Position numbers and translations under genes: made by a program
NCBI GenBank assembly: GCA_949358305.1
Contig: OX442315.1
Location: forward strand, 34,374,427-34,438,426
Reading direction: 5' to 3'
DNA from: Strigamia acuminata
Taxonomy: Eukaryota > Arthropoda > Chilopoda > Geophilomorpha > Linotaeniidae
DNA: 64,000 bases
The notes under the pieces: generated by a model
Told to the model about the DNA's origin: nothing
The model's input: only the letters and a program-made list of their open reading frames with translations
Database searches by the model: none
In this document: piece by piece, positions 14,178 to 38,100 of the stretch
Layout: each line of letters starts with the position of its first letter
Position numbering within the stretch: position 1 is the first letter of the stretch

Positions 14178-17100
14178 ATGGGATCGAGAATAAGGTAAAA
14201 AATTACATTAAATGACACGAATTAACACAAATGCATCACTTTATCTTGTCAAATGATATCGCAACTAGACGAAACACACATGCACACAACACTAACCAAA
14301 CACGATTAAACGTGAAACAAAATCCCCAATTGTCTATTATCAATAAAAAATATGGATCTTAGGAATCAATGTGCCAATTCATATGTCAACGTGGCTGCTC
14401 GTAACGTTGTTGGTGTTGTTTAATGCGATAATTGCGCTAAATGACAGTTGGAATTGATTGAAAATAATTTTATTTCGTTTTTTAAAATTAAACAAATTGA
14501 AATATATTTTATTTTATTTTTTAATTTTGATTTCATTATTTTTTGTTTTAGGAATAACCCATCGAAAATATTCGACTGTTTTCTGGAAGTCGTGATTCCT
14601 CAATTACCTGATGAAGGTAAAAATCATTAAAAATGATTAAATGTGTTTTTTCGCGTTTTAATTTTATTTTTTCGTGTTAAAAGGTGCATGGGTTCTCCAG
14701 AAATATCCGGATGAGTTTACCGATGATGTAAGTTGATGGTTTTATTTAATTTTTGTGTGAAATTGTTTTTTTAATTGTTTTTTTTTTTAATTGTTTTTTT
14801 TGGCAGGAAATTCTGAAGTCTGTTTCCCATTTCTGTTATCCGTGCGATATCAGAAGGTATGCTGTGTGACCGGCCAAAAATGTCTATTTGTTCAACTTCC
14901 TGTCGTAATTTTGCATTAATATCATTTGATATTATCATAATAATAGACGCTAAGTGTTGTCAACGAGGTCGAAATACTTAAACGGAATTTAATTTGAAAG
15001 TGTAAAGTGATGTTTGGTTCAGAGTTTGATGCTTTTAGTGCACAAATTAAAGAAAAATGACATTTCTCCACGAATTGTCGCAAAAATGTTGAAATTTTAG
15101 ACACATTTGTTGTGTTTCCTGCAATTTAATCAAAGGTGAAATGTGAAAATTGATTTTTTTCATCCACAAATTTAAAAAAAATCAATTTTTTTGTGCAGAT
15201 TGAACCAAAATCAATTTTTTCACGCACAAAACGAAGAAAAATTGATATTTTCGTGCACAGAATGAAGTAAAAATCAATTTTTAACGAACTATTCCCAAAA
15301 TATTGAATTCTACTCAAAATTTATTGCGACAAAACAAAATCAATTAAACTCGAGTGTTTTATTCCAGTTCAGTCGTTCAAGTTTTTTCATTTGTTCTGAC
15401 TGGAGCTGATAGCAAATGGACATTTGGTTATTGTCGACACACTCCCGACGCTCCCACAGCGATATGTCTTCTTAGGTAAATAAAATACTCGCCTAAATCG
15501 ATTTAAATCGATTTAAATCCCATTAACTAATTTATTTTTCCAGTTCTTTGCCTTGGCACGAAACGTTTTACGAACTTCTGAATCGAATTGCCGAAATAAC
15601 TCACCGTAAAGAAGACAGCGACCTTTTGAGATTTTTAGAACAATTGTATACAGCACAAGTGCCAAGTCCAGGCGGAACTATAGTTTTGCCTGGTGAAGAT
15701 GGTAAAAAAGTAAATCGCCATTTTGTCTCTCCCGGATTAAAATATAACCCAATTCAGTTTTTCCAGCCATTTTTAATCCATTTAACGTCGATTAATTTAA
15801 TTAATTTAGAATAAATTTGCACTGACATGAGATTTGTTCTATTTTTAGGTTGTTAAGTTTGCGTGTTCAAATCATACCAAATTGCCAAGCATACCAGAAA
15901 ATGTAACCTATTTATATATATAAAAATTAATATTATTAAATAATTAATTGATTTTTTTTTTTTAATTTTTAGAGAAATGTTAGCGAATATTTCAATGCTG
16001 TGGATGCTCAAACGATGATGATACTTTTTGCGAGGTTGAAAGAGTTTTGACTTTGATTTTAATGAAGTTTAATTAAATTTTTTTTTTTTAAATTTTCTTT
16101 CAGTATGTTGAATGAACGTCGTATATTGATTACATCGAACAAACTGAGTCGCTTAAGTGCTTGTGTTCAATCTGCCAATGCGCTGATTTACCCGATGCAT
16201 TGGCAGCACATCTTTATTCCAATTTTACCTACAAACTTAATTGATTACTTGCATGCTCCTATGCCATTTTTAATTGGAGTACCGACCATTGTTTTAGAGG
16301 TAAAAACCGTACTAGATTTTGCAACAAAATGGATTTTTATGCACAAAAATTTAAAAATGAATTTTTTATGCACAAAATAAATTTTTTATGCACAAAATGA
16401 ATTTTTTACGCACAAAATGAATTTTTTATGCACAAAATGAATTTTTTATGCACAAAATGAATTTTTTATGCACAAAATGAATTTTTTATGCACAAAATGA
16501 ATTTTTTATGCACAAAATGAACTTTTTATGCACAAAATGAATTTTTTATGCACAAAATGAATGTTTTAAAATTTTAGTAATTACAAAAATGTATTTCCTG
16601 AATGCTTATGCACTTATTATGCACATAAATGAGTTTTTTGATTTGGTGAACTAATTGCAGAGAAGATTTGACCTTATTAGAAAAAATTTCAATGTTTTAT
16701 GATGAAAAAAATTGATATTTTATAAAAATGATGTACTGGAACATTATTTTATTTTCGTTTACAGAAAGCAGTTAAATTGGATATGAGCGAGATCGTTGTG
16801 TTGCATGCCGATCAAAATAGAATCGAAACTCCCTTTGATGATTTGCAAAATTTACCACCTGAGATTGTAATTCTTCATTTAACAATAATAATTATTTCGA
16901 TTGTGAAATTTAATGTAATGTAATCCAATTTCAGGTATCGAGCTTGAAACGACGCTTAAAAAACTCAAATGCCATGTTAGGCGACAGGATGGCCCGAGCG
17001 TTTCTTCACAGTTTGGTTCAATTAATAGGTGGCTACCGTGACGCGCTTAAATTCCATCACGGCGAAAAAATAACATTTGATTCGGACGCATTCATACAAA

Positions 17101-20100
17101 CGCGCACTCCGAGCATGCAATCGTTTCTCGAACGAATGCTGCAATTGCAAATTTTCCAACAAGTGAATAACAATTCTAATTAAAAATATATAATAATGAT
17201 GATGATAATAAATTTTGCTTTTTAGTTCATCGAAGAGCGGCTGGAAATGTTGAACTCCGGTGATGGGTTTAGCGACGAATTCGAACTCGAGGTTAACGTG
17301 TTTGCAGATAAAAACAGTACGAAGTTACGGCACCAGTACAAAGAGTGGATGAACAACATGCGGGTAAAATTGATATTTATTATCGTGCTGAGAAGAAAGA
17401 GATTAAATTCACTTTTTTCCCATCTATTTTCAGAAGGAAGGTGGCGCGTTTATTAAAAGTGTAAAAAACAAGGTAAGAAATAGTGGAATCCACTAGGATG
17501 ATATTACACAGTTTGCGGCAGGCACTTTTCCCTTATAAAAACCCCTGTTACGCCTATAAGTATAGTGGAAAACTTATAACTCCATCGGAGCTTACAGTAG
17601 GCGCATTCAATAACTTTTCGTGTAAATTTTCGTCTCGCACGAATTTTTACACGAAAAGCTTCGTTTCTGAATGTAATCGTTTATTTAGCAAATAAACGAT
17701 TGTTTAACCACATTGCTTAACCAACTGCCAAACTTGGCCTGGGATTCCAGATCAAGATCTACCGTAGGTCGTAATTCCCGCTACAAGTCGCATACGGGTA
17801 TTTCGTTTCAAGATTTTTCTTTCCTCGCATTTTTATTTTGTTTCAAGCCCTAATTATAACTGTAATGATGATTATTACCATCATTCACTATAAAAAAAAT
17901 AATAACTGCTGCAAAATTGTGCTTATATCTCCAATCGTCGCGATCGATCTAACGGAGATCCAAGATGGCGGTCAAAATGTGCAATTTGAACGAGAAAACT
18001 CGTTACACGGAGATTTAAACGACCTAAAAAGGTCGTTTATTTTCAGCTCGTTTAAACCCATTTAAACGAGCTTTTAAACGAGAATCTCGTTTAAAAATTC
18101 GTGGAAACGAGTTTAAACGACCGTTTATCAGTTATTGAATGCGCCTACTATTTCTGAAAACAGCGCAGCCAATCCGGTAGATTTCCACTATTTACGTCAC
18201 TGACTCAAAATTTGGACTATCAACGACCTTTTTCCGCCGCCATTTTGAATTCTCCGCTTCAGTTACGGTCTATCTAATTATTTCTGCTTTGAATTCATTT
18301 AAATTCACAATAATAAAGTTGCGGCATTGTATTAAAACATTTTAAAACAAGAATTCTCTCTGTTTATGCTAACAGGACAATACTAGTTTCGTTAATCATG
18401 TGACATGTGTAAGGTTACGTCTAATTTTATAACTATAACATGAAACGTCAACCGCAACCCAAACCTTACTAAATGTAGTGTAAAAAATGTACCTGCTGCA
18501 AACTGAATATTGTTTTGAGTTGTTGCATATGTGCTAGTTTATTTTGGACGTCGTTAATTTATCTCTGCTTTTAATCGGTGATTAGGAAACGAAAAGTTTG
18601 ATTTTGACTAATTTGCAACACCAATAGCTTAGTTTTATCACTCTTTAATTTTTGTAGGCTAATCCTGCAGTAATGCATGCTTATAAATCTGTGAGTTTTG
18701 ATTTTATTCACTTTAAATTATTTATTTAGTAAATTTAATTTGAAATGAGCAAATGAAATGTTAATTTTTTTTACTTGACTACTAATCAGGTAAAGGACAG
18801 AGGGAAAAAAGCATACAAAGAAGTGAGATCAAAAATTCAAGATTTTCAACTAAAAGTGAGTAAAAACTGGCATTTGTTGGGAATTTAGTGTAAATATTGT
18901 GGTTGGGAGCTGCATCCAGACCACACAGCTTACAATTACCCAGTATTTTGTATTGAACGCATTAATATTTTAACTTTGAAACTACTTTTAGGATTCTACT
19001 TCAGAAAACATACACGGTTCGAGTCGGCTAAAAGCTCGGCAACCTCGAAGTGCTCCTTCCAGTCCCACTTTACTCAGAACAAGGCCTGTCACTTTTCATG
19101 GATTTAAGGTTAATTTTTCCTTCAAATTATTATTTCCGGGTTTGCAGCTTGTCATGTTAGATGCAGGCTCAAAATTTAATTTATTTCTCTTATTAAAAAA
19201 CATAATGAGCACTGGGGAGTTAATCAACTAAGCTTAGCTTGAGAAAATTGAATGCTAGATAAAAAAAAAAAAGCAAAAGTTACAATTGGATTACTGCATT
19301 AACTAATTATTAACTTTAAAGTGAGTGCTTTTATGTTTTCTTATATTAGTTGTCATTTCACTGCTAAGTGAAAGGTTTTTACTAGTTTGAAACAAGCAGC
19401 TGCAATAATTAATTTGGGTTACGAATACAACTGCATGACGTTTTATTCGGGGGAAGATGGTAGTCTGATTTAGGTACTGTTCCTTTGGTTAGGACAATCT
19501 GCCACTCACGTCAACAGTTTTCTGTGGTTTTGTTAGTGCAAATACAGGGTTGGCTACTCAAGAAAGTTGTCCTTATTTTTAGTTGGATATACCATATATG
19601 GTGCGTCCAAAAAGTCTGTGGAATTACGAAAAATTTGAAAAAAATTAACTTCTAATATTTTGATTTAATTTTCCTTTTAGGATTATTAAATATACCACTC
19701 AAGTAATGTCTGATTAAATTTTCAGACCGATTCAATAATATTTGTTTAAAATATCAACAATAGATGAAAAAACAGGTGTCCAAAAAGTCTGTGGAATTTA
19801 ACAATTAACAAATTTCTTTAACAATAAATTAGAAATATTTTTTGTTTATGGACCAATTATTTTTCCATTATGTTTTATCACTTCAAAAACACGATTTCAC
19901 ATAAATACAATTAATTTTTCCAGAGTTTCAGAAGAGATGTTATCCCAGTATCTCTCAATCGCAGTTTTTAATTCATCAATGGTTGAAAATTGTCTGTTAT
20001 TGGCATAAACTTGACTGGTCATTATTCTCCATAGATTTTCTATGGGTTTTAGTAAGGATTTTAGGCTGGCCATTCCAATAGATAAGTTCTTCCCTTGAAG

Positions 20101-23100
20101 GCAAAAGCTTCCCATACCTAAGTACCATGCCTTTGTTGACCCTCCACCATGTTGGGCTCTGAAAAAGGTGTGGTTCTTTTTGAATTTCATGCCAATAGTA
20201 AGCCAAACCATCAGGACTATCAAGATTCAACTTCTTCCCATCACTAAAATCACTGTGCACCACTCATTGTTCCAGGTCATCTGAACCATTGCCCACTATA
20301 ATTTAGGTTGAGTAGGTTGAGGTTTCAAACTTGGTTGTTCGGCCATTTATTTTATAAAATATCATTGGGAAAGCTTGGAGGTGATTATGAACAGTACTTT
20401 TACTAATGTTTCCTTCAAAGACATCACAGATTTTTTGAACTGAGAGTGAACAGTTTGTTGCGAAATGTAGAACTCTGCAATCAGCTCGATTTGAAGTTAC
20501 TATTGGTCTTTCTGATCTAGGTCTAAGTTGCTAGTTTCCTTTTTACTGATAATATTCCAGTTATATTTATCATTTAGTTTAGCAATTTCATGATTAGTAA
20601 GCCTTCCAGTTTTTATTTTTCATATTTTTATCACTTCATCAACAATGAATTCTTTGTTGTTTGGCATTGTTGATGAAACAATTGCCAAATGTTTAAAAAT
20701 GCAAAAAAGCATTTTAATAAAGGTATGATAACATAAAAATGCTCTATTATTGACTCTAAATATAACCTCACTACCGTGGGAAGAAAGAATAAACAAAAAT
20801 TCCACAGACTTTTTGGACACCTGTTTTTTCATCTATTGTTGATATTTTAAGCAAATATTATTGAATCGGTCTGAAAATTTAATCAGATATTACTTGAGTG
20901 GTATATTTAATAATCCTAAAAGGAAAATTAAATCAAAATATTTGAAGTTAATTTTTTTCAAATTTTTCGTCATTCCACAGACTTTTTGAACGCACCTTAT
21001 ATACGGTTTCTAGCTGAGCTATAGCCTACAGTGCCATCATTTGGTTTGAACGTTTAAACCAGATCGTGTAAAGCTAGTTGTAGAACTAGATTGACTGTCT
21101 AATGCCCTGTTCACACCTAAACCACTTTTGTAGAAAACCCGCCAATTTTGTAGTAAACCACAGGTTTTCTAGAATTCAAAACAAGATGGCGGACTTTTCT
21201 ACAACTCAAGTTGAAGAAAAGTTTTCTTAAACTTGACGTCACAACTGTTTGTTGTGTCATGGGCTGACGTTGACAAAAAATGGCTGCCAACAGCAGGTTA
21301 AAACGTCATGACACTTGTACAAAACTATCCTTAAGTGTGAACAACTGATTTCAGATTTGTAGAACTTAGACTTTTAGAAAATCAAAAGTTCTAGAAAAGT
21401 GGTTTAAGTGTGAACCACGCATAAGCCAGTGGTTCCCACACTTTTTTGGTTCACGGTGCCCATGTAGGTGGTCATGGTGCCCTTGTAGGCCCTCTGCGGT
21501 GCATATGAAGCAGGGCCAGTTTAACCATTGGGCTAAAGGCTCGTTCACATGCAAGCGTTGTTGCATCAGCTTCAACGTGCAAGCATGAAGTTGAAATATT
21601 TGGTGCGAACATGGCGTAATGAGTATGGCTTTTAGTTTTCAACAGTATATTCAGTAAAGTATTTTGCGGGCATAACTAGGCTGTGTGTTAGTAATTATAC
21701 ATAACAAGGATAAAGTTTCTCTTCTAGCCCATGAGCAACTTGAAATCTACGAAGAAGGAGCGATTGCACCCTGACGGTGTCGGCGATGAATCGCCTTTGA
21801 CGTAAGCAAATTGCAATTTAGGTATTTTTTGCTGAGGGACAGGACTTCACACATGCCTTTTGTTTCACATTCTGCTGGCATATTTTCTCACATTTTGTCT
21901 CTGAATCATAACACCTTTTCTTCTTTTGGCTATAGTTTTCGTGGGATAAACTTCCTGCTTCTAAAGACAAGTAAGCATGCTGCATGATGTTGTCAATTAA
22001 CTATTCTAATTCAATAAACAGGAGTATGTGAATTGAGTGATTAGGCTTCAGTATATTGAGGCAACTACTACTATTACTATTACTATTACTACTGTACTCC
22101 AAATTGATACAACGTTGTCCAAACTTCTATTGTTCGAGTCATTTTATTGGTGTAGTGGCACAAAAATGTAGCCCTTAGCACCAGAATTGTTATCTAACTA
22201 GGCAAAACAACCAATAAAAAACTAAACCTTTGTTCACCTGCCAAAAGATACCAATAAACTACATTAAAATTGTTTGATTGATTAAAAGATGAAAAAGCTT
22301 ATTTTAGCAAATGAAATAAATATTTTAAAACCAAATAAATAAAATCTATTATTCTAATCACTTTTTACACTGAAATTCAGTGAAAATAAACAGAACTACT
22401 TTTCCGCGTAATAGAGCACAGTCCACAGTAAAGCTAGGTTCACACTTGTGTTCACACTAGATGTAACGCAAGAAAACTGACGCTTCGCAGGCTGCTTAAG
22501 TCCCAAAACTCTTGACGTTGACATCAATTCCTGCTTCAACTCCAAATTGAAGTAAGCGACGCAATGCAAGGAAAGGTCTTGCGGCCAACCAATCACGACC
22601 GACTCCAACTCTCGTCGATTCACGTCTGGTTGGCGAGACTTTGCTACATGGAAACAAGCCACCTTTTTTGGATTCTGGAACTAATTGTAGAACTAGATCC
22701 AATTCCAGGTTTCATTTAAACCATCTGATTGTCCATATGCAACATCGACTGTTTCAGCTCTGCTCACACGTGCCCTACAGTGTGCTGCGATCCGGGTTTT
22801 TATCCACTTAATTTCTAATAAATTAAGCAGAAACCGCAGGTGAATGCTATAAAAGACTTACAATCGGCGGCCTTAAATTATCTAGGGGTTAAGTTTAAGG
22901 AAAAGAAATAAAAAGACAGTTTTATTAATAAAAATCACAAATATGTATTTATTCGTTTAAATTACAATGACTAGTTAAAAATATCACAATGGCGACAAGT
23001 CGCGAAATGAAATGAGCGGGAACAATGGAAGGGCTTGCAACGACTGTTGCAAGCTACAAAGCGCTAAAATGGCGCTTAAACAACACACAGTTGTTAGGCG

Positions 23101-26100
23101 AAGGCGAATTGTCTTCGTTTGCTGAACTCACGAACGATGGTCGAAGACGATGGTTCTCGTGGGCTCCTTCTACGGCTCGTGCGACGGCTCGGCGGCGGTG
23201 GTTGACGGCTGTAGGCGTCCGGCTCTCGTACGATGGCGGTGGCTGTCGTTCGCGCGGCAGCGACGGCGATGGTTCACGATCGTCGGGAAACTTCTTCTTC
23301 TCGTTTGCTGGAATTAGCTACGGCTAATTCAAGCAGAATTGCTGGCTTTGTGCTTTGGGTGGCACAAAGATAGCAGGTGAAACTGAGTTACAACGGTCCT
23401 CTATCAATACGTATTGTCGGAGCAGATATCGCAGTGATGTTGAGGTTGTTGTTGTATTTTTCAGAGTCCCGATTTGAGCCAAGACGCGAGCCCAGCACGC
23501 TTCAATATTGCGCAGAAAACCTGCGCACTTAGCTCAAATGGGTGCAACTAGTGGTTATTACACCATATTGCACCATAACGGCTAATAACCGTTTTCACCC
23601 CGGACAACCTGGGGTGATATGTGCCTAGAGAGGATTTCTCCCCTCGGTCACATGATCTGACTTGGCGTGTGCCACAGTCAAATTAATTAGAAGATAATTA
23701 ATTTAATCTTCTAAGTTGGTGAATATTTTGAGATCACCACACATCCCCCCATTTAAGACGAATCTTACATGGAGAGAAAATGAACGAACCAATTTATGAT
23801 TCGTCCATGGTCTGAGTTCGCTCAGGCGTCAACGGGCGCATCATATCCGTGGTGTCGTCCCTCGGGTTGGACCGCTCGTTAACCGTACACAGGTCGCGAC
23901 CTGCGTTTGGTCCGGAGACCATTCCAGGGTTGACATGAAGCCAAACCTGGATGATTCTCGCCGAGTTCGCTCGGTTGAAAAATCCTAGCGCCGCAAACTC
24001 TATGGGATCCTCTGGCGCCAATCGTGCTCTCAGGAGTCGATCGTGGAGCACTGATGGTGGGCTTAACACCCGGATGTGGTCCTCGAGCCACATAAACACC
24101 TGCCTCGACAACTTGTGGTTGTTGCTAAGCAGTGTTCGCGTATCCGGCGTCAAATAGAAGTGCGGATACAGGCGCATCAGGGTCTTGAAAGCCGACTCTT
24201 TTTTCAGCGGCTTGACCTTCGTCTCCGGCTTGGCTGGCGGCGGCGGCGGCGGACGTGAGTCTTCCGTCGTGGCATCGTCAAAATGGCACTGCGGGCCCAA
24301 GAAAACCAACGCGGGTGCGGAGGTTGACGAGGGTGTGACGCCTCGTCCCGGTGCTCGACCCACACCGGGGAGCTGACGGGTTTCGACTACCCGTTGAACT
24401 CCGGCTGGAGTTTGAGAACTTCCGGCGTTCTCTGGCCAAAATGAACATCCAGCGCCCTCTTGGGCCGACTGGAAAACAGCCAGTGACGCAGCTGCTGTGG
24501 CGCTTGTAACTGGAAGCGGTGGTCTTCCGGTCATTCGCGCCGTGGCCTTCGCAAAGGACCACTCGGTTCGCAACCGAACGGCGGCCTCTTCTTCGGTCTC
24601 ACCGTTTGCTACGACTTGCTTTATTAGCTCGGCTAAGATCGTAGGCGGGTCGAGCCTGAGGTGGTACCACAGCTCGACTTTCTTCTCCGACAGGCCCATC
24701 GGCGCGGTCCAAAGGTACGTAATGGCCGCTAACGCCTGTCCTGGCGAAGGAAGAACACCAGGGTACAACACCCTAGTCATCCCCGGAATTAGCTGACGCT
24801 GAAAATCCATCAGACGGGGATCATCAATGGTATTGATGTCGGAGACTTCTAGCCTTTCAGCTAGTCTCTGCCAGTCCTTCTGCGACTCGGCGATCTGGGC
24901 GCTTTGGTATGCGTCCAGCTTCTGGAGCACTTCCTGCTGCGCTCTAATGGGTTGCTGCTCGTAGCAGGTCCATTGTGGGCCGAACGACTCACTGAAAAAT
25001 GGCCGGAGTTGCAGGTTGCTAACTCCAGCCGGCAAGCGGGAAACATAACCTTGTTCGGGCAAGCGGCTAGCGTGTCCAGGTACAGGCACGCTACAGTCGG
25101 GAGAAATATCACCGACGACACGTCTCATGGCGTATGGAGTAGCCGGGTTGTCCACTTTGAACGTGGAGGCGGTTCGGCTACTTCGGGCGGACTTAATTGT
25201 GGAGTCCGATTCGAAACTCAGCGAAGACGACGAGCCAAACGACTCTGGTGTCCGTCCTCGTCGCGACTGCGGGCGTGATGGCTGCGCGTCAGTCGAATAT
25301 GGGCGTGATCGCCTCTGACGTTCCTCTCGATCGCGGCTTGATTCGCGGAACATCGGTCGGACTGGAACCGGCGGAGGGAGTTGCCCCACCCTCAAATCCT
25401 CGTCTTGCGGCGGAGGATTGATGGCCGCTGGGGCCGGAATTCCATCTTCTTGATAAAAAGGGAGAGCGCAACGCGCTTGCTCCTCTGCCTCGTGTTCTCG
25501 AGCCAGTTGTCGATTTTCGTCGACGCGAAGCTGCACCGCGGCAGCTCGGAGTGCTTTGGACGGGAAAAATCCCGGAAAATCGTTAAAACACCCGGCGAGC
25601 GCCAACTGGTGGAGCTCGGTTTGTGTGACGGGAAGTTGTGGGTTCCCGTCACGAACGGATTTGCGATACCGTTTAACGACTTCGCGTTGTGTCGTCTTGA
25701 GGTTCTTCCTCAATTGGGTTAGAGCACCGTAATTAATTCCGGTACTCTTTAGCGCTCTTCTGCGCTCGTGACGCTCTCGTGGCGTCACTGGCCACTGGTT
25801 GTGCAGCAACTCTGCTGCAAGCGGTCCTGGGGGGCTCTCGTCGAGCGTCCACTCGATTTCGTCGACACCGTCCACGTGAAGGCGCTCGATGAATCTTCCT
25901 TTTGCACCAAATCCTTGCAGCGCTGATCTGCTGAAGTCGTGGCGCAACTTCCACCAGGTATTGTTTGCCGTCTTCAGTCTTCTGATTTTTTCGGGCAATG
26001 CCGCTCGAAAAATCAGCGGGTGCTGAGTCGGCACGTGATCGGGAAGCGCGAATGGTGTTTCTCGATCCCTCTCGATCTATATTCGAAGAAAAATAAATAA

Positions 26101-29100
26101 ATTAGTTTATTTAAAAATAAACAAATAATTTCTTATTTGAAATATTTTTTAAGCTTAGCGCTTGTGGCTGTGAGTCACTAAGGGATGTTGGTTGTCATGG
26201 CAACTCCCTTCGCACATGCTTGAAGCACGTGACTTTTATAGCCGCCATTTTTATTTTTTAGCGGCTTGTGTTTGAAGTCAGGAAAAGTGAAATTACTCAA
26301 TTTTTCTGACTTAAACACTTGGTAAAAATTTATTCTAATAATTTACCCGTTGTTGAAGCGTCAATTGAACGTCTTCATTTGCCCCTTCCATGGGCATTTC
26401 TCCGTCCGCCTGGAGTTGGATCGCTTCCTCGTCCATTCTCTTTCGTTTTCCGGTAATTTCGGAAATTCTTTCGTCTTGAAAGAGAAATAATACATAAATC
26501 TTATGTTTTATCAAATTTTTCATACAGAAAAATTACTTACGATCAGGTTGTCGAACTATTCGGGTCGTAACGTAGGCGATGCGATGCATACACTCTCGAA
26601 ACTTTTGAAAAAGTGACTAAGTTCGTTGATTGCAAACACGAACTTGGATTAGAGACGCTTTGTGACGTCACTAATTATAACGTATGATTAACGTTGTCAT
26701 TCGAGTGGGTACTACGAATGACGTCACGAGATTGCTTTCTCGGATCTTTTGGGTAAACCCAAAAGGTGAAAGACAACACTATGTCTTGGCTCGCGGAACG
26801 CGAGATCTCAAGTTGTACTTTGACTTTCGCGAAGTACAATCCAACTTGTTTAGATTGTCATCAGCATCGTCTCCAATGTCAGATGAGTTATATACTTCAT
26901 TGTTTGAAATTTTCTCTTTTTCTAAAAACATTTCCTTTTCTAGATTTTCATCAAGAGAAACATTTTCAAGTCGCTGGTTTATTTCATCGACTTCGTTATT
27001 TTTGAGTTTCGATTTTTTACTCGATTCCGTGTTTTCGACAGGAATTTTGGATAATTTAGCATCATCCAAGGTATTAACAATATTCTTTGTTTTTTGACCC
27101 ACTTCCTCCCCTTCCAGCCAAATTTCTTGGTTGAAAACGGGAAAGTACGGCATTAATTCAGTGCCGTGAACAGCTGGATAAATTTTATTATCACTCAGCC
27201 GTCGAAGTTGAAAGGCGCCTCCTTGTAACCTTTTGATAATTACATAAGGCCCATTCCTTTTCGGTGAAATGCCTGCTGCTATTCCTTTAGCGGCATTTGA
27301 GAGAATATGAGACTCTCGCCAGACTAAATCATTTTGTCTGAAGTTGTCGAATTTCTTATCTGATTTTTCAGCTTCGACACGGCGTCTCAAATCTAAGACG
27401 TGAGACATCATATGCTGATACGTCTCTGCAATTATTGTTTCTAATTTCTGAACATATAAATGCGGATTTTTTGGATCAATGACTAAAATTCCTTCCGGAA
27501 TTCTTGGATCCCAAGGAATTCTTAATTCTCGGAAAAAATTTAAGAAAGCAGGAGAATAATCTCTGCCTCTTGTTACAGTTGTTCTCAAACTGAATGCAAA
27601 TTCGCGTAGATACTCATCCCATTGGTCATGAATATCTAAATAAATCGAAACTAAATATTTAATATCTCGATTGGTTCTCTCCACAGGATTGCTTTGTGGA
27701 TGATAAATCGATGTCGGTGTTCGCGACATGTCGAATTTTTTGCAAAATTCTTTATAGACCTGTGATCGAAATTGTGGTCCATTATCACTTATGATTTGTC
27801 TCGGAAATCCGAAAGTCATTGATAAGTGATAAATTGTGTTGGCAACTTTTATTGCCGTTGGATTACACATTGGAAATAATTCGGGCCAATGTGTAGCGAC
27901 ATCTACGATGACGCAAATGTGGGTATTGTTTTTTCTGGTTCTTGGTTTGGGACCAGACAAATCCACACTGAGGCAGTCAAATGGTCCAAATGGTCCAATT
28001 TGAGCGCCTTCAATTTCGGTCTTTGATCTCGGCTTACATGCCTGACATCCTTGACAATGTTGAATAAAACGTGTAATATCACGTTTCATACCTTTCCAGG
28101 TATAAACTCTTCGAGTTCGGTACATTGTCCTCGCAATGCCTGGGTGGCCGGACAGTGGATGTCCGTGCATCAACCAAATGATTTTATAAATCAATTTTCT
28201 TGGCACAACAACTTTAAGTGCCCTACCATCCTCTCCCAATTCATCGGTGGAGGTAGGATGATAATGGAGTAGCATATCTTCTTCAATGAGATAAGTACTC
28301 GCGTGTCTTTCAAAGTTTCTTCTTTGAAGACGAGTTACTATGTAACTTGGATATTGCTTGTTTAGCAAGTAATTGCGAATATGTTGGCAAAATTCGTCTG
28401 CTTTTTGCGCTGCAATAATGTCATCTCTCGTTGGAGGATCACATTCTAATTGCTTCGCAATTTTAGCTGCAAATGCTTTAATTAAAACATTTGTTGTTGG
28501 CAGCTCGAATTTTTTAGCCATCATAGCTCTTAATTCGACGTCAGGGGTTCCTGACGGATCATGCATGTTAATACAAAAATTAATTAATGCTTGATCGTCG
28601 TCATTAACTATTATTGACTTGGGTAATTCGTTCAATTTTCCCATTTGCCAACTTCGGCAAGGAGATGGACAATATGATAATAAATCATCATTATCGCCAT
28701 CGTCTTCTGGTTCGTCAGGTGCGCTGACAGGTGCACGTGACAATGCGTCTGCTATTACATTCAGCGGACCTTTGACGTATTGTATTTCGAACGAATACGC
28801 CATTAGCTCCATTTGCCAACGAGCTAATCTGCCCGACGGGTCAGATAACGACATCAACCACTTAAGTGCTTGGTGATCCGTTTGTACAGTGAATGTAGTG
28901 TACTCTAAGTATGGGCGAAATTTGCGTAATCCCCATACTACTGCGAGACATTCTAATTCTGTCACAGTATAATTCTTTTCAGCGGGTTGCAAGCTTCTGC
29001 TTGCATACACGCATGGCATTTCGACTTCTTGGCCATCCACAATTTTCTTTTGTGTAAGGGCTGCACCCAACCCTTGTTTACTGGCGTCAGTATGAACAAT

Positions 29101-32100
29101 AAATGGCATGTACAAGTCAGGCATCTTCATTGTTTCAGCATTCGTAAGCAGGTCTTTTATTGCGTCGAATGCTGCTTGATGATGCAGTTCCCAATCGAAC
29201 TCCGCATCTTTCTTCAAGAGTGGCCTTAGTGGTTCTGCCACTGTGGCCAAATTCTTGATTAGGCGGTGAAAGAAATTCACCATGCCTAGAAATCTTTGTA
29301 ATTCCTTAAGATTGGTAGGAGCAGGAAATTGCGTAATTGCAGCGACTTTTTTAGGGTCTACTGCAAGTCCTTCTACTCCTACTTTGTAGCCTAGAAAAAT
29401 TAATTCCTTTCTACAGAGATGCGTCTTGCCAGGGTGCGCATGTAAATTAGCTTCTGCCAATTTTTTAAACACTATATCTAAATGTTTAATGTGTTCTTCG
29501 AACGATTTGGATACAACAATTATGTCATCCAAATATGCCCATGCAAATTTTCTGTAAACGTCACCCAAAACTTTTTCCATTAATTCTTGGAAGGTAGTTG
29601 GTGCGTTTACTAATCCGAAAGGCATGACTAAAAACATTAGTCTTCCCATTGGGCTCCAGAAGGCAGTTTTTTCTCTGTCTTCAGGGCGCAATTCTATCTG
29701 CCAATATCCCTTGGTCAGATCTATAGTACTGACCCACTCGAATTCTCCGATTTCTCGCAGAATTTCCTCAATTGTTGGCATTTGAGGTGGGTTGTACTTA
29801 GTATGTGTATTGATGGGGCGAAAATCAATGCACAAGCGTGGGTCGTTTCCTGGTCGCATGACTAGGACTGGCCTCATTCCGTAATCGCCTTCAGCTTTGA
29901 CGACTACGCCTTTGTCAATCATGTCTTGACAAAGTTGTCTGATTATTTCCCTTTTTTGAGGGTTTATGCTCTTAAAGGGGACACGGATGGGTTTCTCCGT
30001 GTCAAGCTCAATTTTGTGCTTAACCAGGTGTGTTTTACCTGGATCTTTAGAAATAATCCTTTTATGTTTGGATAACATCTTTTCTAATAATTTGGATTGC
30101 TCCAAATTTAAGTTAGCTTCTTTGACTAACTTTTGGATGAAATTCTCTTCATCAATTTTGCTTTGAGTTACACTTGCAGCGTAAGCTTTTGCAAAGGTCA
30201 CAAATGAGGAATCGGGTTCCTCTATTTTCTCCAAATAACGATCCAGCAACGCTTGTGGAATGTAGGGTAAATCTGCATCCACAGGTTGCGTGAAATTCCA
30301 AGACATCGTCTGTGGATTAGGTTGGATTTTTAATTTATTCATAAAATCGCAACCCAATAGTACCATTGGATACTTATTTGGTATTACGATGAACGGATGA
30401 CGTAACGTGCCATGTGTCCATCGAAATGAAAGATGAATGGTTCCATCTGGAGTGACTTCTTCACTTGCCGTCGTGACTCTGACACCAGGTCCGATAGGTC
30501 GTAGATATTTTTCTAGACCTAATTGATTAATAACTGAAGTGGCTAGGAAGCTTTTATTTGCTCCTGAGTCCAACATTCCGGTTATTACACCTTTTAACGT
30601 TTCTAACTTTAACGTCGGAAGGTCTTGGCTGTTTGGTATTCCAGCCACTTTGCACTCAAACTTGCGCAATTTATGAGGAATTGTAATTGGAGGCTCCAAA
30701 GGCAATTCATCTAATAACTCATTGGTATCAAGAGTTGTAGTTGCAAATAACTTAATGCATTCCTCAATTCCAGGTGTCTCTGGAACTGAGCTTGGTCTAT
30801 CGTCTTTAACTTCGACTTTATCTTGAATATTGGAAGTGTCTTCTTCAGTCGGGGTTTCGCCGACAATCTCCTTTTTTACATCAAGAGATCCATTTTCTTT
30901 TAGTTCAGTTTGACGAATTAATTCATCAATAGCTTCTCCAACATCTTCCATTATCTTCAGATTTTCATTCTCTGATTCCGATTTCGGAGGTGACGCAGCG
31001 TCCACTAGACCTGATGGATCTGCGTCTACAAGTTTTTTCGAAACATGTCAGTTATGATCTTGACTGCTTTTTCAAACTCAGCTGTTGACACTGGTTTGTC
31101 CTTTTTAGAGGAAGGGCAGTCTTTTTGCCAATGCCCTAATTTTTTGCATAAATTGCATGGATCAGTGGCAGGCGATTTCTTTTTCGTTGCTGCTGGCGAG
31201 GCAGAACGAGAACGAGCGTCAGACCGGCGCTCTGGCGACACCGCGGGTGATTTTGAATTCCTTTCGGTATTCACCTTTGATGCGTCAAATGAAACATTTT
31301 TTGGTTTCATTTTTGGCTTCCATTTGCCTGCAACGGGGTTATTTTTTGCTAACAGCGCCGCTGCTTTGGCTAATAAAGCCAACGTCTCATCTCCTGCTTC
31401 CTCCTCCTCTTCAGCTTCTTCAGCTTCAGACGACGGAGTTTCAGCTCCAGTTATATTTGCATGTAACTTAGGAACTGAATGAGGATTTTTGACGTCCTTT
31501 TTGGAAGATTCTTTTTTCGAACTCTTCTCATCCACTTCGTCTAGAAAGTCTTCGTAACTAGGTGGCTGCAACAATTTCAAACCATTAAAGGTTTCATTGT
31601 TTTGCTCAGCGAGTCTTTTCTCTCGCTTTAAGTACGCTGACCTTTCGCTTTCTGTAAGGTAAGCTTTGTACTTTTCGTCAATGCGCAATTGATTGACTTC
31701 CATGAACTCGTTTAACTCGGAGAATTTCCCCGGGTCGGGAGCGTCCGACATCATCAGAATATTTTTACTATATTCTGTGAGGCCAGCTCTAAACTGATCA
31801 TCTGCTGTTGCATCAGTAACAGCATGTGGCATTCTGCCAAGCAGATTCTCTGCTCTTAGCATGTACGAATGTAAGCTTTCGCCTTTTCGTTGCTTAAGAC
31901 ATCTCCAAAGCGTCTTGATGTCTTCGCTCGATTCACCAAATTTAAACATAAATTGTTTAACGAAGTCATCCCACTTCGTGAAGTCTTTCCTGCGAAACCA
32001 CTCCTTGACACCGCCAACTAGTATTCTTGGTACTAGATGGGCCAATGCACCTTCACAGCTAAAACTGTGAACTTTGCCTAGTTCGAATATTTCCAGCAAG

Positions 32101-35100
32101 AGGTTTGACCCTGCTTGCCAATTTCCATTATAGGCATGTGGGATAACTCGATCCCATCTAATGAACTTTTCATCTGTTGTTTGATGAGTCCATTTATCAG
32201 AAGTAAATTCACTTATTTTTTGCAAAATAATTTTATCCCTTCTGCTTTTTCGCTGTTGTTGAGCATTTTGCCTCAACAACTGGTCAATCTCATCTTTCGT
32301 GTAAAAATCGGGTCTTTGAGTTCTACTACGTGTTCTGTGACGAGATCGCCCTCTCACACTGGGACGTGAGGAATCTGTATCTGACGCAGATTCATGATTC
32401 GGATTTGGCGGCGGATCAGGGTCCGGAGGATCGTCGCCATCTGGCGGACGACGGTCTCCATTTGGTGGTCCCCTTCCATTTCGATTGCCATTCGAATTGT
32501 GGTCACGTGAGTGGCCACCTCCATGTCCATCTGAACTGTCTCCACCTGGTGGGTCACCACCTGGCGGATTTCCACGGTATCTCGGCCCATCACGGATGTC
32601 GTTGTGACAATCTCGTTTTGGTGAGCCTTCTCGCGGATTATCGTGTGACCGTCCACGATCGTGTGGTTTCTCACGTTCTTTATTCTTTTTCGCCAGCAAT
32701 CCAATTAATTGGTCACTATTGCTAAAGAATCTATCCGAATTTTGCGGAACTTTTGGGGAATGATATTCGGTCGGGTCTGGTTGTCGCTTTCTCTTTTTGC
32801 GACTGTGATGACTATTACGGCTTCCACGACTACTGCGTGAGTCATCGCTGTCAGTCCAACTTGATTGTCGACTGACTTTTGGTTTAGCTGATGTTAAATC
32901 AATCAACTCAGGTGATTTGGAAGCACCTTTTTGCAAAACTGGGGCTGGCTTTGCAAAATTATCTTCGCCACAAACGTCTTGTACTTTTTGTACGACTACT
33001 GCAAAGTTTTCTTGTACCGTCAATAGATCTGCGCGAAGAATCTCGTTTTCACGAGCTTGCGCAGCTAAGTCGGCACGTAATAACTGCTCTGCAGTACTTT
33101 GACTTTTGGCGGCTTGACCAGCATCAATTACAGACTGCTGTCGAGCGAGAAATACTTCGTTTTCTCGTTGTGCTAATCTCTTAGCTCTTGCTGCTTGCTC
33201 TGCAGCATGATTCTCGTAATTTCGAGAAGTGGAGGGAATTTCTTCCCTCGCTCGAACTGGGGCGGTTAGTTCGGCAGTCATTAAATTTGTGTTGGCTTCT
33301 CGCAAATTTGCGTTGGCCAATCTCAAATTTTCATTAGCAATTTCTAAATCTTTTTGTGCTTGATTTAGTTGCTCGAGCCTTTGTTGTTGCTCTTCGTCAG
33401 TAATTAGCCAGGAAGCTTTTTCCTGCTCTAATTGTAACAACTTAACATGGTCATTCGCACGTTGTTGTTTTAGTTCGGCATTTTGCTGATGCATTTCTGC
33501 ACGCATTCGCTCGAACTCTGCTTGCAAGCTTGTTCTGACGATTTCAACGTCTTTTTGACTTTGTTTGCGAACCATAGCTTTGTGGATTTGTTCCACAGTC
33601 ATTTCGCTAGTGACTATTACTCCCTCGAGCCTAGCTTGCTCACGGAGTGCGTCCATCATGGTAACACGCACGGGAGAATGAGAAACTTCCATATTGGAGT
33701 TCTCAGAATCTTGTTGTGCTGCACCTTGAACCGGTGATGAATTCAGCGAGTGCTCTGCACTTGATGATTGAATTCGTAAATTCAAATCATCGTTTTGCGA
33801 CTTGGAACGGCCACTTCCAGTTGGATTGTTTAAGTCCAACTGGCCGCTGGGCGGGGATGGCTGTTGTCGCTCCAACGCTTGCGTGAATTCATTCACGATT
33901 AACTGTGCCGAGTTACAGTTAGCTGTTTGATCCATGGCTTCAAACAATTCTTGTGACTCAGTCACTTCTTGATCCACGACTGGTAGATCGATCGCCACTC
34001 GTCTCTTCGCCGGCCTTCCTCTCGGTCTCTTCTCTGAAGGAGTCGCCATTTTTCAATGAGGATAAAGAAAGGATAGAGAAGAAAGATAAGCAAGATAAAA
34101 ATGGCGGGTAAATTTTAACTAACAAAGTTATACAATGACTATCCCGGACGGGCCCCCACGTGCTGCGATCCGGGTTTTTATCCACTTAATTTCTAATAAA
34201 TTAAGCAGAAACCGCAGGTGAATGCTATAAAAGACTTACAATCGGCGGCCTTAAATTATCTAGGGGTTAAGTTTAAGGAAAAGAAATAAAAAGACAGTTT
34301 TATTAATAAAAATCACAAATATGTATTTATTCGTTTAAATTACAATGACTAGTTAAAAATATCACAATGGCGACAAGTCGCGAAATGAAATGAGCGGGAA
34401 CAATGGAAGGGCTTGCAACGACTGTTGCAAGCTACAAAGCGCTAAAATGGCGCTTAAACAACACACAGTTGTTAGGCGAAGGCGAATTGTCTTCGTTTGC
34501 TGAACTCACGAACGATGGTCGAAGACGATGGTTCTCGTGGGCTCCTTCTACGGCTCGTGCGACGGCTCGGCGGCGGTGGTTGACGGCTGTAGGCGTCCGG
34601 CTCTCGTACGATGGCGGTGGCTGTCGTTCGCGCGGCAGCGACGGCGATGGTTCACGATCGTCGGGAAACTTCTTCTTCTCGTTTGCTGGAATTAGCTACG
34701 GCTAATTCAAGCAGAATTGCTGGCTTTGTGCTTTGGGTGGCACAAAGATAGCAGGTGAAACTGAGTTACAACGGTCCTCTATCAATACGTATTGTCGGAG
34801 CAGATATCGCAGTGATGTTGAGGTTGTTGTTGTATTTTTCAGAGTCCCGATTTGAGCCAAGACGCGAGCCCAGCACGCTTCAATATTGCGCAGAAAACCT
34901 GCGCACTTAGCTCAAATGGGTGCAACTAGTGGTTATTACACCATATTGCACCATAACGGCTAATAACCGTTTTCACCCCGGACAACCTGGGGTGATATGT
35001 GCCTAGAGAGGATTTCTCCCCTCGGTCACATGATCTGACTTGGCGTGTGCCACAGTCAAATTAATTAGAAGATAATTAATTTAATCTTCTAAGTTGGTGA

Positions 35101-38100
35101 ATATTTTGAGATCACCACAAGTGTGAACAGACTCTGCGTTGCATTTGACTAATTTTTCCTTGCGTTGCGTTGTGTCGCCCCTGGTGTGAACACAAGTGTG
35201 AACCTAGCTTTAGGCGTAATCCGGCTCAACCAATAGGAGTTTGGACAACGTTGTATCGGTTTGGAGTATAGTAAACTACTTGACGGTGCATACAGTACTA
35301 AAGTTTTATTTATTTATTCGTACAATTAAATATGTAAGCATTGGGTATCACAGTGTACTCTGTGCAGCCTGGATTGAACACAGGACAGTCCCAGAAAGTT
35401 ATCCAGACTAACAGGCTGTCCGGTATATGCACGAGTTACATTCAAGTACTGTATGCCATCGCATGTTAACAAGTAGTGCTAATTCTTGTGTTCTGTTCAT
35501 TCTTGATTGAATACACCTAACAAGGACAGTGGTACGTTTTTTGAAAGGGGGTGCACAGTGCCACTGTCTTCTTTAATTAACTTAATTTAAAGTGGTGTAA
35601 TTGCACCTTACTGCTAGTACTTATTGCCTCAAAGAATGCTTCTTGCATGGTCTAATACTCACCCATGCACCAGCCAAAGGAGTCTTGACTACACACCTAT
35701 CTCTTCACTTTGAATTGGCATTTGTATTCTGGTAAATTGTATCACTTCACCAGCAAACACAATTTAATTTTCACAAATTGAAGAAATAGCTGATATTTTA
35801 GATGACAATTTAATTCACAATACTCCTGCAAATTAAATGCGTTCCAGACTATAATACAGTCGAACCTCTTTATAATGAATCGCGATATAACGAATTTCTT
35901 CGTTGGTGGGCCATAGAATACCACGTTAAAAAAATTAGTTGTAGCGAACTTTCGTTATAAGTAGACTACGCACGAATATTTTGTGAATGCAATTTTTGAA
36001 GTAATAGAACTGAATTTCTTTAAGCAAGATATTAAATTTTTGATTATTTCTTTAATAGTCTTATATAAAGGACTCGACTAAATACTTCCCCATTCTTGCT
36101 AATACTAATTAAGAATAAGAGCATTAACATCACCAGAAATCATGGATGCAGTAGAACTCCGATTATCCGAACAGTGGTGATTAATTTTTTATATAGATTT
36201 CTATCAATTTTTTAATCGTTTTTAACACCTTTAAACAGTTTTTAATCGATTTTTTTATTTTCATATACAGTACAGCACGTGGTGGACAAAAAACTTCCCT
36301 TTTGTTTAGCTGTTTTAAGTTTATCTATCATTATTTGCTCGGTCTATCTTTTAATACTGTTGTTAGGGTAAGACGGGAGACCGAGTCAAGATTGATATCA
36401 TTGAATCTCAATGGATTTTTATGCCACCTGGTATACTCTTTCCGCACTCAAGAAGAGCCCTGGAATCTTGGCTCCCATTGGCCTACCGTCTTCCCTCGAA
36501 TATAACGTCATGACGTTGTGTTCGAATACAACGACACCTGACGTTTTATTTGAACACTACGTCATGACGTTATATTCGTACTTTTTCATACAACTTCTGA
36601 AAAATCAGAAGTTGAGTACATTCCGATTAACAATATCAAGCTTCGTCTTGATCGTATAGCTCCTCCGCTTCATCATTGTTTAGAAAATGAATGAAAACAC
36701 AGGGTACGACAGACTTCAAACCTTTAATCTAAGTTCAAAGCTGTAAGTGTTTAACAGTAGAAATGCGACTACACGTGTTTATTCCAAATACAAAATGGCC
36801 GAAGCCCAAAAAGATTAAAATAACAAGGTGATGATTGGTTGGGCGGGGGGAGGGACGTAGCGGGCGCCACCTCGAGGCGAAGCCTAACAAAAACATACAG
36901 TAAGTTTTATATTCGTGTCCAATTCCTATCAAATTCCTATCAAATTCGTATCAAAATTTTGTCAAATGCGTGTCAAATTTGTTTTTCTGGCATCGTGCCT
37001 GTTAAAAGCGCACCCCGCAACGCTTCCCGGCATCGCACCCATCAATGCACTCGAATATAACGTCATGACGTTGTATTCGAATACAACGTCATGACGTTAT
37101 ATTGGAAGTGACGTTATATTCGAGAAATCGCTAAAACTTTCAAAAACAGCGATTTCTGAAAAAACTTTAATACAACGTCATGACGTTATATTCGAGGGAA
37201 GACGGTAGTCTGTTTACTCAGAACTGTATATAGTTATAGTTGTAGTTCTACTACAAGGAAAAGTAGTTCCCTATAATGTATTTCTGGTGTTTTGGGTCTT
37301 TTTTATGTATCACTACACAAGTGATATGGCTTGGCCAATGGGAGCCAAGATTCCAGAGCTTTTCTTGAGTGCGGAAAGAGTATAGATAAACTTAAAACAG
37401 CTAAACTGAAGGAAAGTTTTTTTTGTCCACGACTGTGCATACATGAATTAGTTCGGATAATTGATGTTTTACTGCATTTTAAGAATAATATCCAACTTTA
37501 CTGACTGCATTCATTCTGCGTATTAACAAACTAAAAAATCTTAGAAAAAATGTAGCAATTTTATTGCAAGTAGTATTTTAAGTTAAATTACAATCAATAT
37601 AATTACAGCGTTGCATTTTCAGGCCTCAACATTACAATCTTCTAGAAGTTTCTGAAGGATCAGATGACAACCCACCGGATGATAGTGAAGAACAACTGTC
37701 GGATGGTGCTAGTCCATTGCTCAATGTTCGGCGTATCAGTATGGATCTAATGGGTGACCTTCAGGACCTCATCTTTAGGAGATGTTCAGTTAGTGACATT
37801 AGCAGTGATCCACCTGTAAGTAACAGTTCTACTTCCTTTAAAAGTAAAGGTATGCGTACATTCACAACTTTTGTAAAAATTATGACCGTATTTCCACTAT
37901 ACTCCAAACCGATACAACGTTGTCCAGACTCCTATTGGTTGAACCAGATTACGCCTAACTACGCGGAAAAGTAGTTCTGTTTATTTTCAATGAATTTCAG
38001 TGTAAAAAGTGATTAGAATGATGGATTTTATTTAATTGGTAATAAAATGTTTATTTAATTTGCTAAATCTGCTTTTTCCCCTTTTAAGCAATCAAACAGT

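Follow-up and report, generated by a model that had tools for sequence, protein, structure and literature searches.

A putative spliced accessory gene between pol and the 3' long terminal repeat of a Ty3/gypsy retrotransposon in Strigamia acuminata

Retroelements whose own genome retains introns have to export unspliced RNA from the nucleus, and a locus in the centipede Strigamia acuminata raises the question of what kind of gene would come with such introns. The locus lies in a 64,000-nucleotide stretch of contig OX442315.1 (positions 34,374,427 to 34,438,426; hereafter the window, in whose numbering coordinates are given), where a Ty3/gypsy long terminal repeat (LTR) retrotransposon on the minus strand carries, downstream of pol, a third open reading frame (ORF3) split by two predicted introns. 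The initial annotation, made from the letters of the window, had proposed a gene of three exons, other than an envelope and expressed by double splicing. Is ORF3 a genuine gene, are its introns removed, and what might its product do? Compared across the copies of the element in the genome, ORF3 is very probably a selected, spliced gene. Our preferred reading, to which we assign a probability of roughly 0.55 as a whole, is that of an accessory gene whose spliced RNA would encode a nuclear regulatory protein.

A three-exon gene downstream of pol

The three exons of ORF3, all on the minus strand, are exon 1 with the start codon (26589-26541), exon 2 with a KRKR motif (26474-26347), and exon 3 (26076-23794), and they join in phase into 819 codons plus a stop, as first annotated. 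Intron 1 (26475..26540) is 66 bp long and reads GTAAGT..AAG, and intron 2 (26077..26346) is 270 bp long and reads GTAAAT..TAG. Exon 3 by itself has an open frame of 760 codons plus stop, in agreement with the initial annotation and far beyond chance, as no frame exceeded 434 codons when the region was randomised 2000 times under a first-order Markov model. About 40 bp separate its stop codon (23796-23794) from the polypurine run AATGGGGGGATG, which adjoins the 3' LTR; this distance, too, agrees with what had been described.

The evidence that the introns are removed comes from copies of the element that have lost them. Locus L069, with 1314 codons of pol upstream (pol 97% identical), lacks the two introns precisely from one predicted splice site to the next, and so does locus L071, which has the end of pol upstream. 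Each of the two has a close intron-bearing relative: for L069 it is L048, with 1 change in the 49 bases of exon 1 and 3 in the 128 of exon 2, and for L071 its close sister L073, so that there were apparently two separate losses. Genome-wide, the direct junction of exon 2 with exon 3 occurs at seven places at least, L069 and L071 among them, and in at least five sequence forms, the search pattern having fixed the junction sequence. The copy at C1:52744934 is also without intron 1 (801 bases to the pol motif, as in L069), and that at C1:57484508 probably keeps it, to judge from the 869 bases to its pol motif. Judged from these intron-loss copies, the ORF3 introns are real, both having been removed from some RNA. 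Such copies would arise when spliced RNA is reverse-transcribed and then recombines with genomic RNA. Introns have thus been lost more than once, yet 7 junctions compare with about 150 motif matches. That copies without introns are so few even though losses recur suggests a benefit of the introns for propagation.

The splice sites point the same way. A splice-site match was obtained at 70 of 73 loci (the others being L051, L070, and L072), and intron 2 ends in AG in 58 of the 59 intron-bearing loci from L009 on, L057 reading TAA; 12 of these 58 ends are CAG, against TAG in the window, and the splice site is nonetheless preserved. The combined length of exons 1 and 2 is a multiple of three in all 44 loci that fit the full pattern, a count that is partly by construction, as the pattern itself demanded the GTAAGT donor of intron 1 and AG-type acceptors. 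These 44, mostly diverged copies together with near-identical ones, were drawn from the 65 loci from L009 on (L001-L008 repeat places that recur under later numbers, and the window's own copy is both L002 and L012). Kept splice sites and exact intron-loss copies together support the proposed expression by double splicing.

ORF3 belongs to a family rather than being a single copy, since pattern counts in the genome gave about 150 matches for each part of it: an ORF3 C-terminal motif occurs at 150 places, a pol motif at 154, and the core of intron 2 (at up to 3 mismatches) at 147. The family is abundant and has been recently active. Of 1477 first-look candidates, the 59 best-scored, which include the copy in the window, have an exon 3 free of stops in 57 cases, and copies thus generally carry the gene intact rather than lacking it or bearing it with stops; yet 9 of the 44 pattern-fitting loci are broken, the remaining 35 being uninterrupted up to the stop codon or as far as their sequence extends. 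More diverged copies were sought through a conserved ORF3 motif with a forced synonymous difference, which matched 73 places, of which the first 30 (L039-L068, all on contig C1) were taken; the same kind of pattern on a second ORF3 motif had no match in the genome.

In 31 comparisons with the window (the 30 diverged copies and L069), the ratio of nonsynonymous to synonymous divergence (dN/dS) of ORF3 was 0.028-0.151, with differences mostly at third positions; these comparisons are not independent, because the window is the reference in all of them, and L067 and L069 are one place. The older copies L071 and L072 gave ratios of 0.171 and 0.159 at dS values of 0.61 and 0.65, and pol of L069 gave 0.12. 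ORF3 is under purifying selection, as is pol, and the dN/dS test on other copies that had been suggested for this gene therefore shows selection throughout (0.028-0.171). Locus L070 (C1:41855600-41858500) holds an old fragment of the ORF3 C-terminus within other repeat-like sequence, with 61% identity over 88 residues.

A putative nuclear protein and the core of intron 2

What might such a protein do? A basic motif (KRKR, KRRR, or KRRK) is present in exon 2 of all 44 pattern-fitting loci and is putatively of the nuclear-localisation type, and about residues 300-360 the protein is rich in Arg, Ser, and Pro. We propose that ORF3 RNA is spliced twice, yielding a protein of about 819 residues that would act in the nucleus on the element's own RNA or transcription. 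Its most likely role would be to set the proportion of spliced mRNA to unspliced genomic RNA, and its candidate target would be the conserved core of intron 2, which is present only in the unspliced RNA. The regulatory role, considered by itself, we hold only tentatively and at somewhat less than even odds.

A known arrangement of this kind is that of retroviral Rev and Rex with the Rev response element (RRE), where a multiply spliced regulatory gene encodes a protein with a basic nuclear motif and the structured RNA is found only in unspliced RNA. ORF3 would resemble it as a putatively doubly spliced regulatory gene with a basic motif and with a candidate structured RNA, the intron core, retained only in unspliced RNA. 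It differs in that no sequence relation was seen, in its far larger size, and in that RNA binding or export by ORF3 is putative. By analogy, a doubly spliced nuclear ORF3 protein might recognise the structured core of intron 2 and let unspliced genomic RNA leave the nucleus, as a switch of independent origin within Ty3/gypsy elements and with a fold of its own so far without parallel; we regard this specific version as unlikely.

The core itself (26159..26252, 94 nt, minus strand) reads ATGGCGGCTATAAAAGTCACGTG and differs from L073 at 5 of 94 positions, against 39 of 172 in the rest of the intron; the longest identical run between the two introns is 57 nt, compared with 49 in exon 3 of L071 and L072. 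In 10 diverged intron-bearing copies, intron 2 is 1.5-5.6% from the window, and their exon 1 is 49-63% and their exon 2 19-34% from it. Nucleotide constraint on the core is well supported. That the core acts as RNA is plausible: intron 2 folds far better than its shuffled versions, at z -6.8 for the window's copy and -8.0 for L073, whose antisense strand gives -3.2. The core could, as well as forming an RNA structure, be a DNA promoter or enhancer.

Several results weigh against the preferred reading. In the window, intron 2 read in antisense has a fold almost as good as in sense (-5.6 against -6.8), and the best intron 2 segment comes only 12th among the 122 segments scanned. The element as a whole (22783-35119), coding parts included, has better folds than its shuffles on either strand (median z -3.1 for sense and -2.7 for antisense, against -0.7 elsewhere in the window), so that intron 2 is not uniquely structured and the claim of a special fold is weakened by these controls. 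Covariation is thin, with double changes in 2 of 75 pairs, each in one sequence; 52 introns were collected, and an alignment was made of the 25 distinct sequences among them. The low divergence of intron 2 could be partly due to recent recombination, the copies being mosaic. On the protein side, stretches resembling a nuclear export signal are loose pattern matches only, a protein database search with the single ORF3 sequence gave no homolog among the 7998 candidates scored, AlphaFold models of exon 3 and of the C-terminal part reached predicted local distance difference test scores (pLDDT) of 37 and 51, respectively, and offered no usable fold, and Foldseek with the C-terminal model found no match better than E 5.7. 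The helical content predicted by AlphaFold is of low confidence. A search of Rfam over the element gave one match (E 0.62), below the gathering score.

The mosaic pattern was seen in a set of 14 chosen loci, of which L044 was left out of the distances because of an inserted repeat. The 10 diverged intron-bearing copies among them do not include L042, whose sequence here agrees with the window, nor the intron-less L069 and L071. In 9 of these 10 the end of pol is 1.7-3.4% from the window (L057 has foreign sequence there), and from the intergenic stretch to exon 2 the same copies are 15-63% away, before the low values of intron 2. Modules (26347-26960 and matching stretches) appear to have been exchanged between element copies by recombination.

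Where the ORF3 mRNA starts bears on the part played by the core. Upstream of exon 1 there are two TGACGTCA sites on the minus strand, at 26719..26726 and, 56 bp from it and with GTTATAA immediately 5', at 26663..26670, which we take to be CRE-type. Both occur in 56 of the 58 loci of L009-L073 that have both flanking anchors (window's copy and L067/L069 included), 55 times at the 56-bp spacing and once at 49, with L026 and L040 having one site. L071 keeps both, and the remaining intergenic stretch there is 28% different; across the genome, the pair was found at 182 places, some outside the element, against 0 for the reversed pattern. This conservation makes an internal promoter plausible, and ORF3 transcription may start either at the paired sites or at the 5' LTR. 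A tandem run of TGACGTCA with about 56-bp spacing also lies at G000:C1:10110240-10110416, away from the listed ORF3 and pol motif matches.

An alternative, at somewhat less than even odds, is that ORF3 is transcribed on its own from the paired sites, without any long splice out of an LTR leader, and that the intron 2 core serves as a DNA enhancer or promoter rather than as an RNA element. Besides the conservation of the sites, it is favored by the lack of any copy joining the tested leader donor to exon 1 (0 matches), a search that covered one donor and one genome pattern. Against it, several copies have a pyrimidine run and AG ahead of the start codon, the arrangement of a splice acceptor, and the difference between the sense and antisense folds of intron 2 in L073 speaks for RNA. 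This alternative concerns the route of expression and overlaps with our preferred reading. L025, considered as a leader-spliced copy without gag-pol, was rejected, as its sequence ends inside intron 1.

Origin and kind of the ORF3 protein

Under a second alternative, which we consider rather improbable at about one chance in a few, ORF3 was captured from a host or another virus and serves as a helper in the particle or cytoplasm (as a chaperone, in assembly, or against silencing) and not as a regulator of RNA processing, the introns being leftovers of the capture or needed for expression only. The G+C content at third positions is 0.60 in ORF3, against 0.34 in pol and 0.37 in gag, which suggests a separate origin, and the basic motif by itself does not fix a role. 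However, the introns are kept at most places though losses recur, suggesting that they matter, and the one motif pattern tried, made for diverged C-terminal forms, yielded no host paralog, its two matches being the old fragment at L070 and a listed element copy. The initial annotation had left the choice between a new accessory protein and a captured host gene; a non-envelope accessory gene is supported by selection, splice sites, and intron loss, and capture did not gain such support.

Genes placed after pol are known from other elements, which are compared here as described in parts of the cited papers. In the bdelloid rotifer elements Vesta, Juno, and TelKA, an extra ORF stands between pol and the 3' LTR and is often not an envelope (PMC5408684). 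These rotifer ORF3s are a GDSL esterase, a DEDDy exonuclease, a fusion glycoprotein, or small transmembrane ORFs (PMC5408684), whereas the Strigamia ORF3 matches no library searched and is split by two introns. The plant elements Grande and Retand likewise hold an accessory gene in a long 3' internal region, but antisense to gag-pol, whereas ORF3 is sense and spliced (PMC11963269, PMC7264820). The sORF2 of the MDG1 group is, like ORF3, a non-env accessory gene of insect Ty3/gypsy elements, but the sORF2-like products measure 63-107 residues and include a transmembrane domain (PMC11952523). With 819 residues and no membrane segment by hydropathy, ORF3 does not fit a fusogen of the sORF2/FAST-like type.

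Insect errantiviruses also have a third gene after pol made from spliced RNA (PMC12992720), and this position and mode of expression are what could be said for ORF3 being a highly diverged envelope or structural protein, which we judge very improbable. The env-F protein comprises a signal peptide, a furin site, a fusion peptide, and a transmembrane domain, and splicing connects its main exon with another one that lies within gag or upstream of it (PMC12992720). The two ORF3 introns, by contrast, interrupt the gene's own coding region. In ORF3, the highest 19-residue hydropathy is 1.0, and hence there is no membrane segment or transmembrane anchor by that measure, as had been annotated; the 819 residues hold one N-glycosylation motif and 7 cysteines. 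Exon 3 matched 0 Pfam families at E up to 1, no NCBIfam or PHROGs family passed thresholds, PDB sequences gave nothing beyond chance (one chance-level row, E 1.4), and viral contigs held no homolog. A comparison with the element's own Gag by hhalign gave a probability of 0.1% and no profile match, which speaks against a Gag/capsid duplicate. The statement that the protein matches nothing recognised thus held in the sequence and profile searches made, and neither an env domain in Pfam nor a match to Gag emerged. Finally, it is hardly conceivable that the GT..AG pairs of the introns arose by chance and that some other way of reading applies to exon 3, for although exon 3 alone of the three is very long, both introns were lost exactly in two lineages, the junction occurs at seven places, and exons 1 and 2 keep phase in 44/44 loci.

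Extra non-env genes in Ty3/gypsy elements are therefore already known, and what is new is the combination of a gene that lies in sense, is split twice, and encodes no membrane protein with a conserved core in one of its introns, which does not appear among the rotifer, insect, and plant elements in the cited descriptions; this applies to those elements and not to the literature at large. ORF3, its introns, and the core occur together in about 150 copies, many near-identical, for which the intron-loss copies are natural controls, so that control of splicing and export by a retroelement becomes testable; a protein family without a relative in the databases searched is added as well.

Architecture of the element and other features of the window

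The element is 12.3 kb long, and all its parts lie on the minus strand. Its LTRs, the 5' LTR at 34161..35119 and the 3' LTR at 22783..23741, are identical and 959 bp each, with TG..CA edges, and are flanked by the target duplication AGTG (22779-22782 and 35120-35123), all read from the letters; the insertion is therefore young. Two bases past the 5' LTR lies the primer binding site TGGGGGCCCGTCCGGGAT (34141..34158), which we liken to tRNA-Pro. The gag gene (31026..34049) has 1007 codons and one CCHC knuckle slightly below the Pfam cut-off, and it overlaps pol at the slippery heptamer A AAA AAC (31032..31038), which, read against the frames, is in phase for -1 gag-pol frameshifting. Pol (26779..31047) has Pfam matches to protease, reverse transcriptase, RNase H, and integrase in that order, those to protease being slightly below the curated cut-offs. 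This domain order between LTRs fits Ty3/gypsy (Metaviridae), to which the element belongs.

Two further features lie outside the element. At 19594-21002, inverted repeats of 206 bp (97% complementary) surround about 1 kb, presumably a DNA transposon of the Tc1/mariner type. An array of 20-bp tandem repeats occupies 16314-16613, apparently, on our assumption, in an intron of a DENND1-like host gene.

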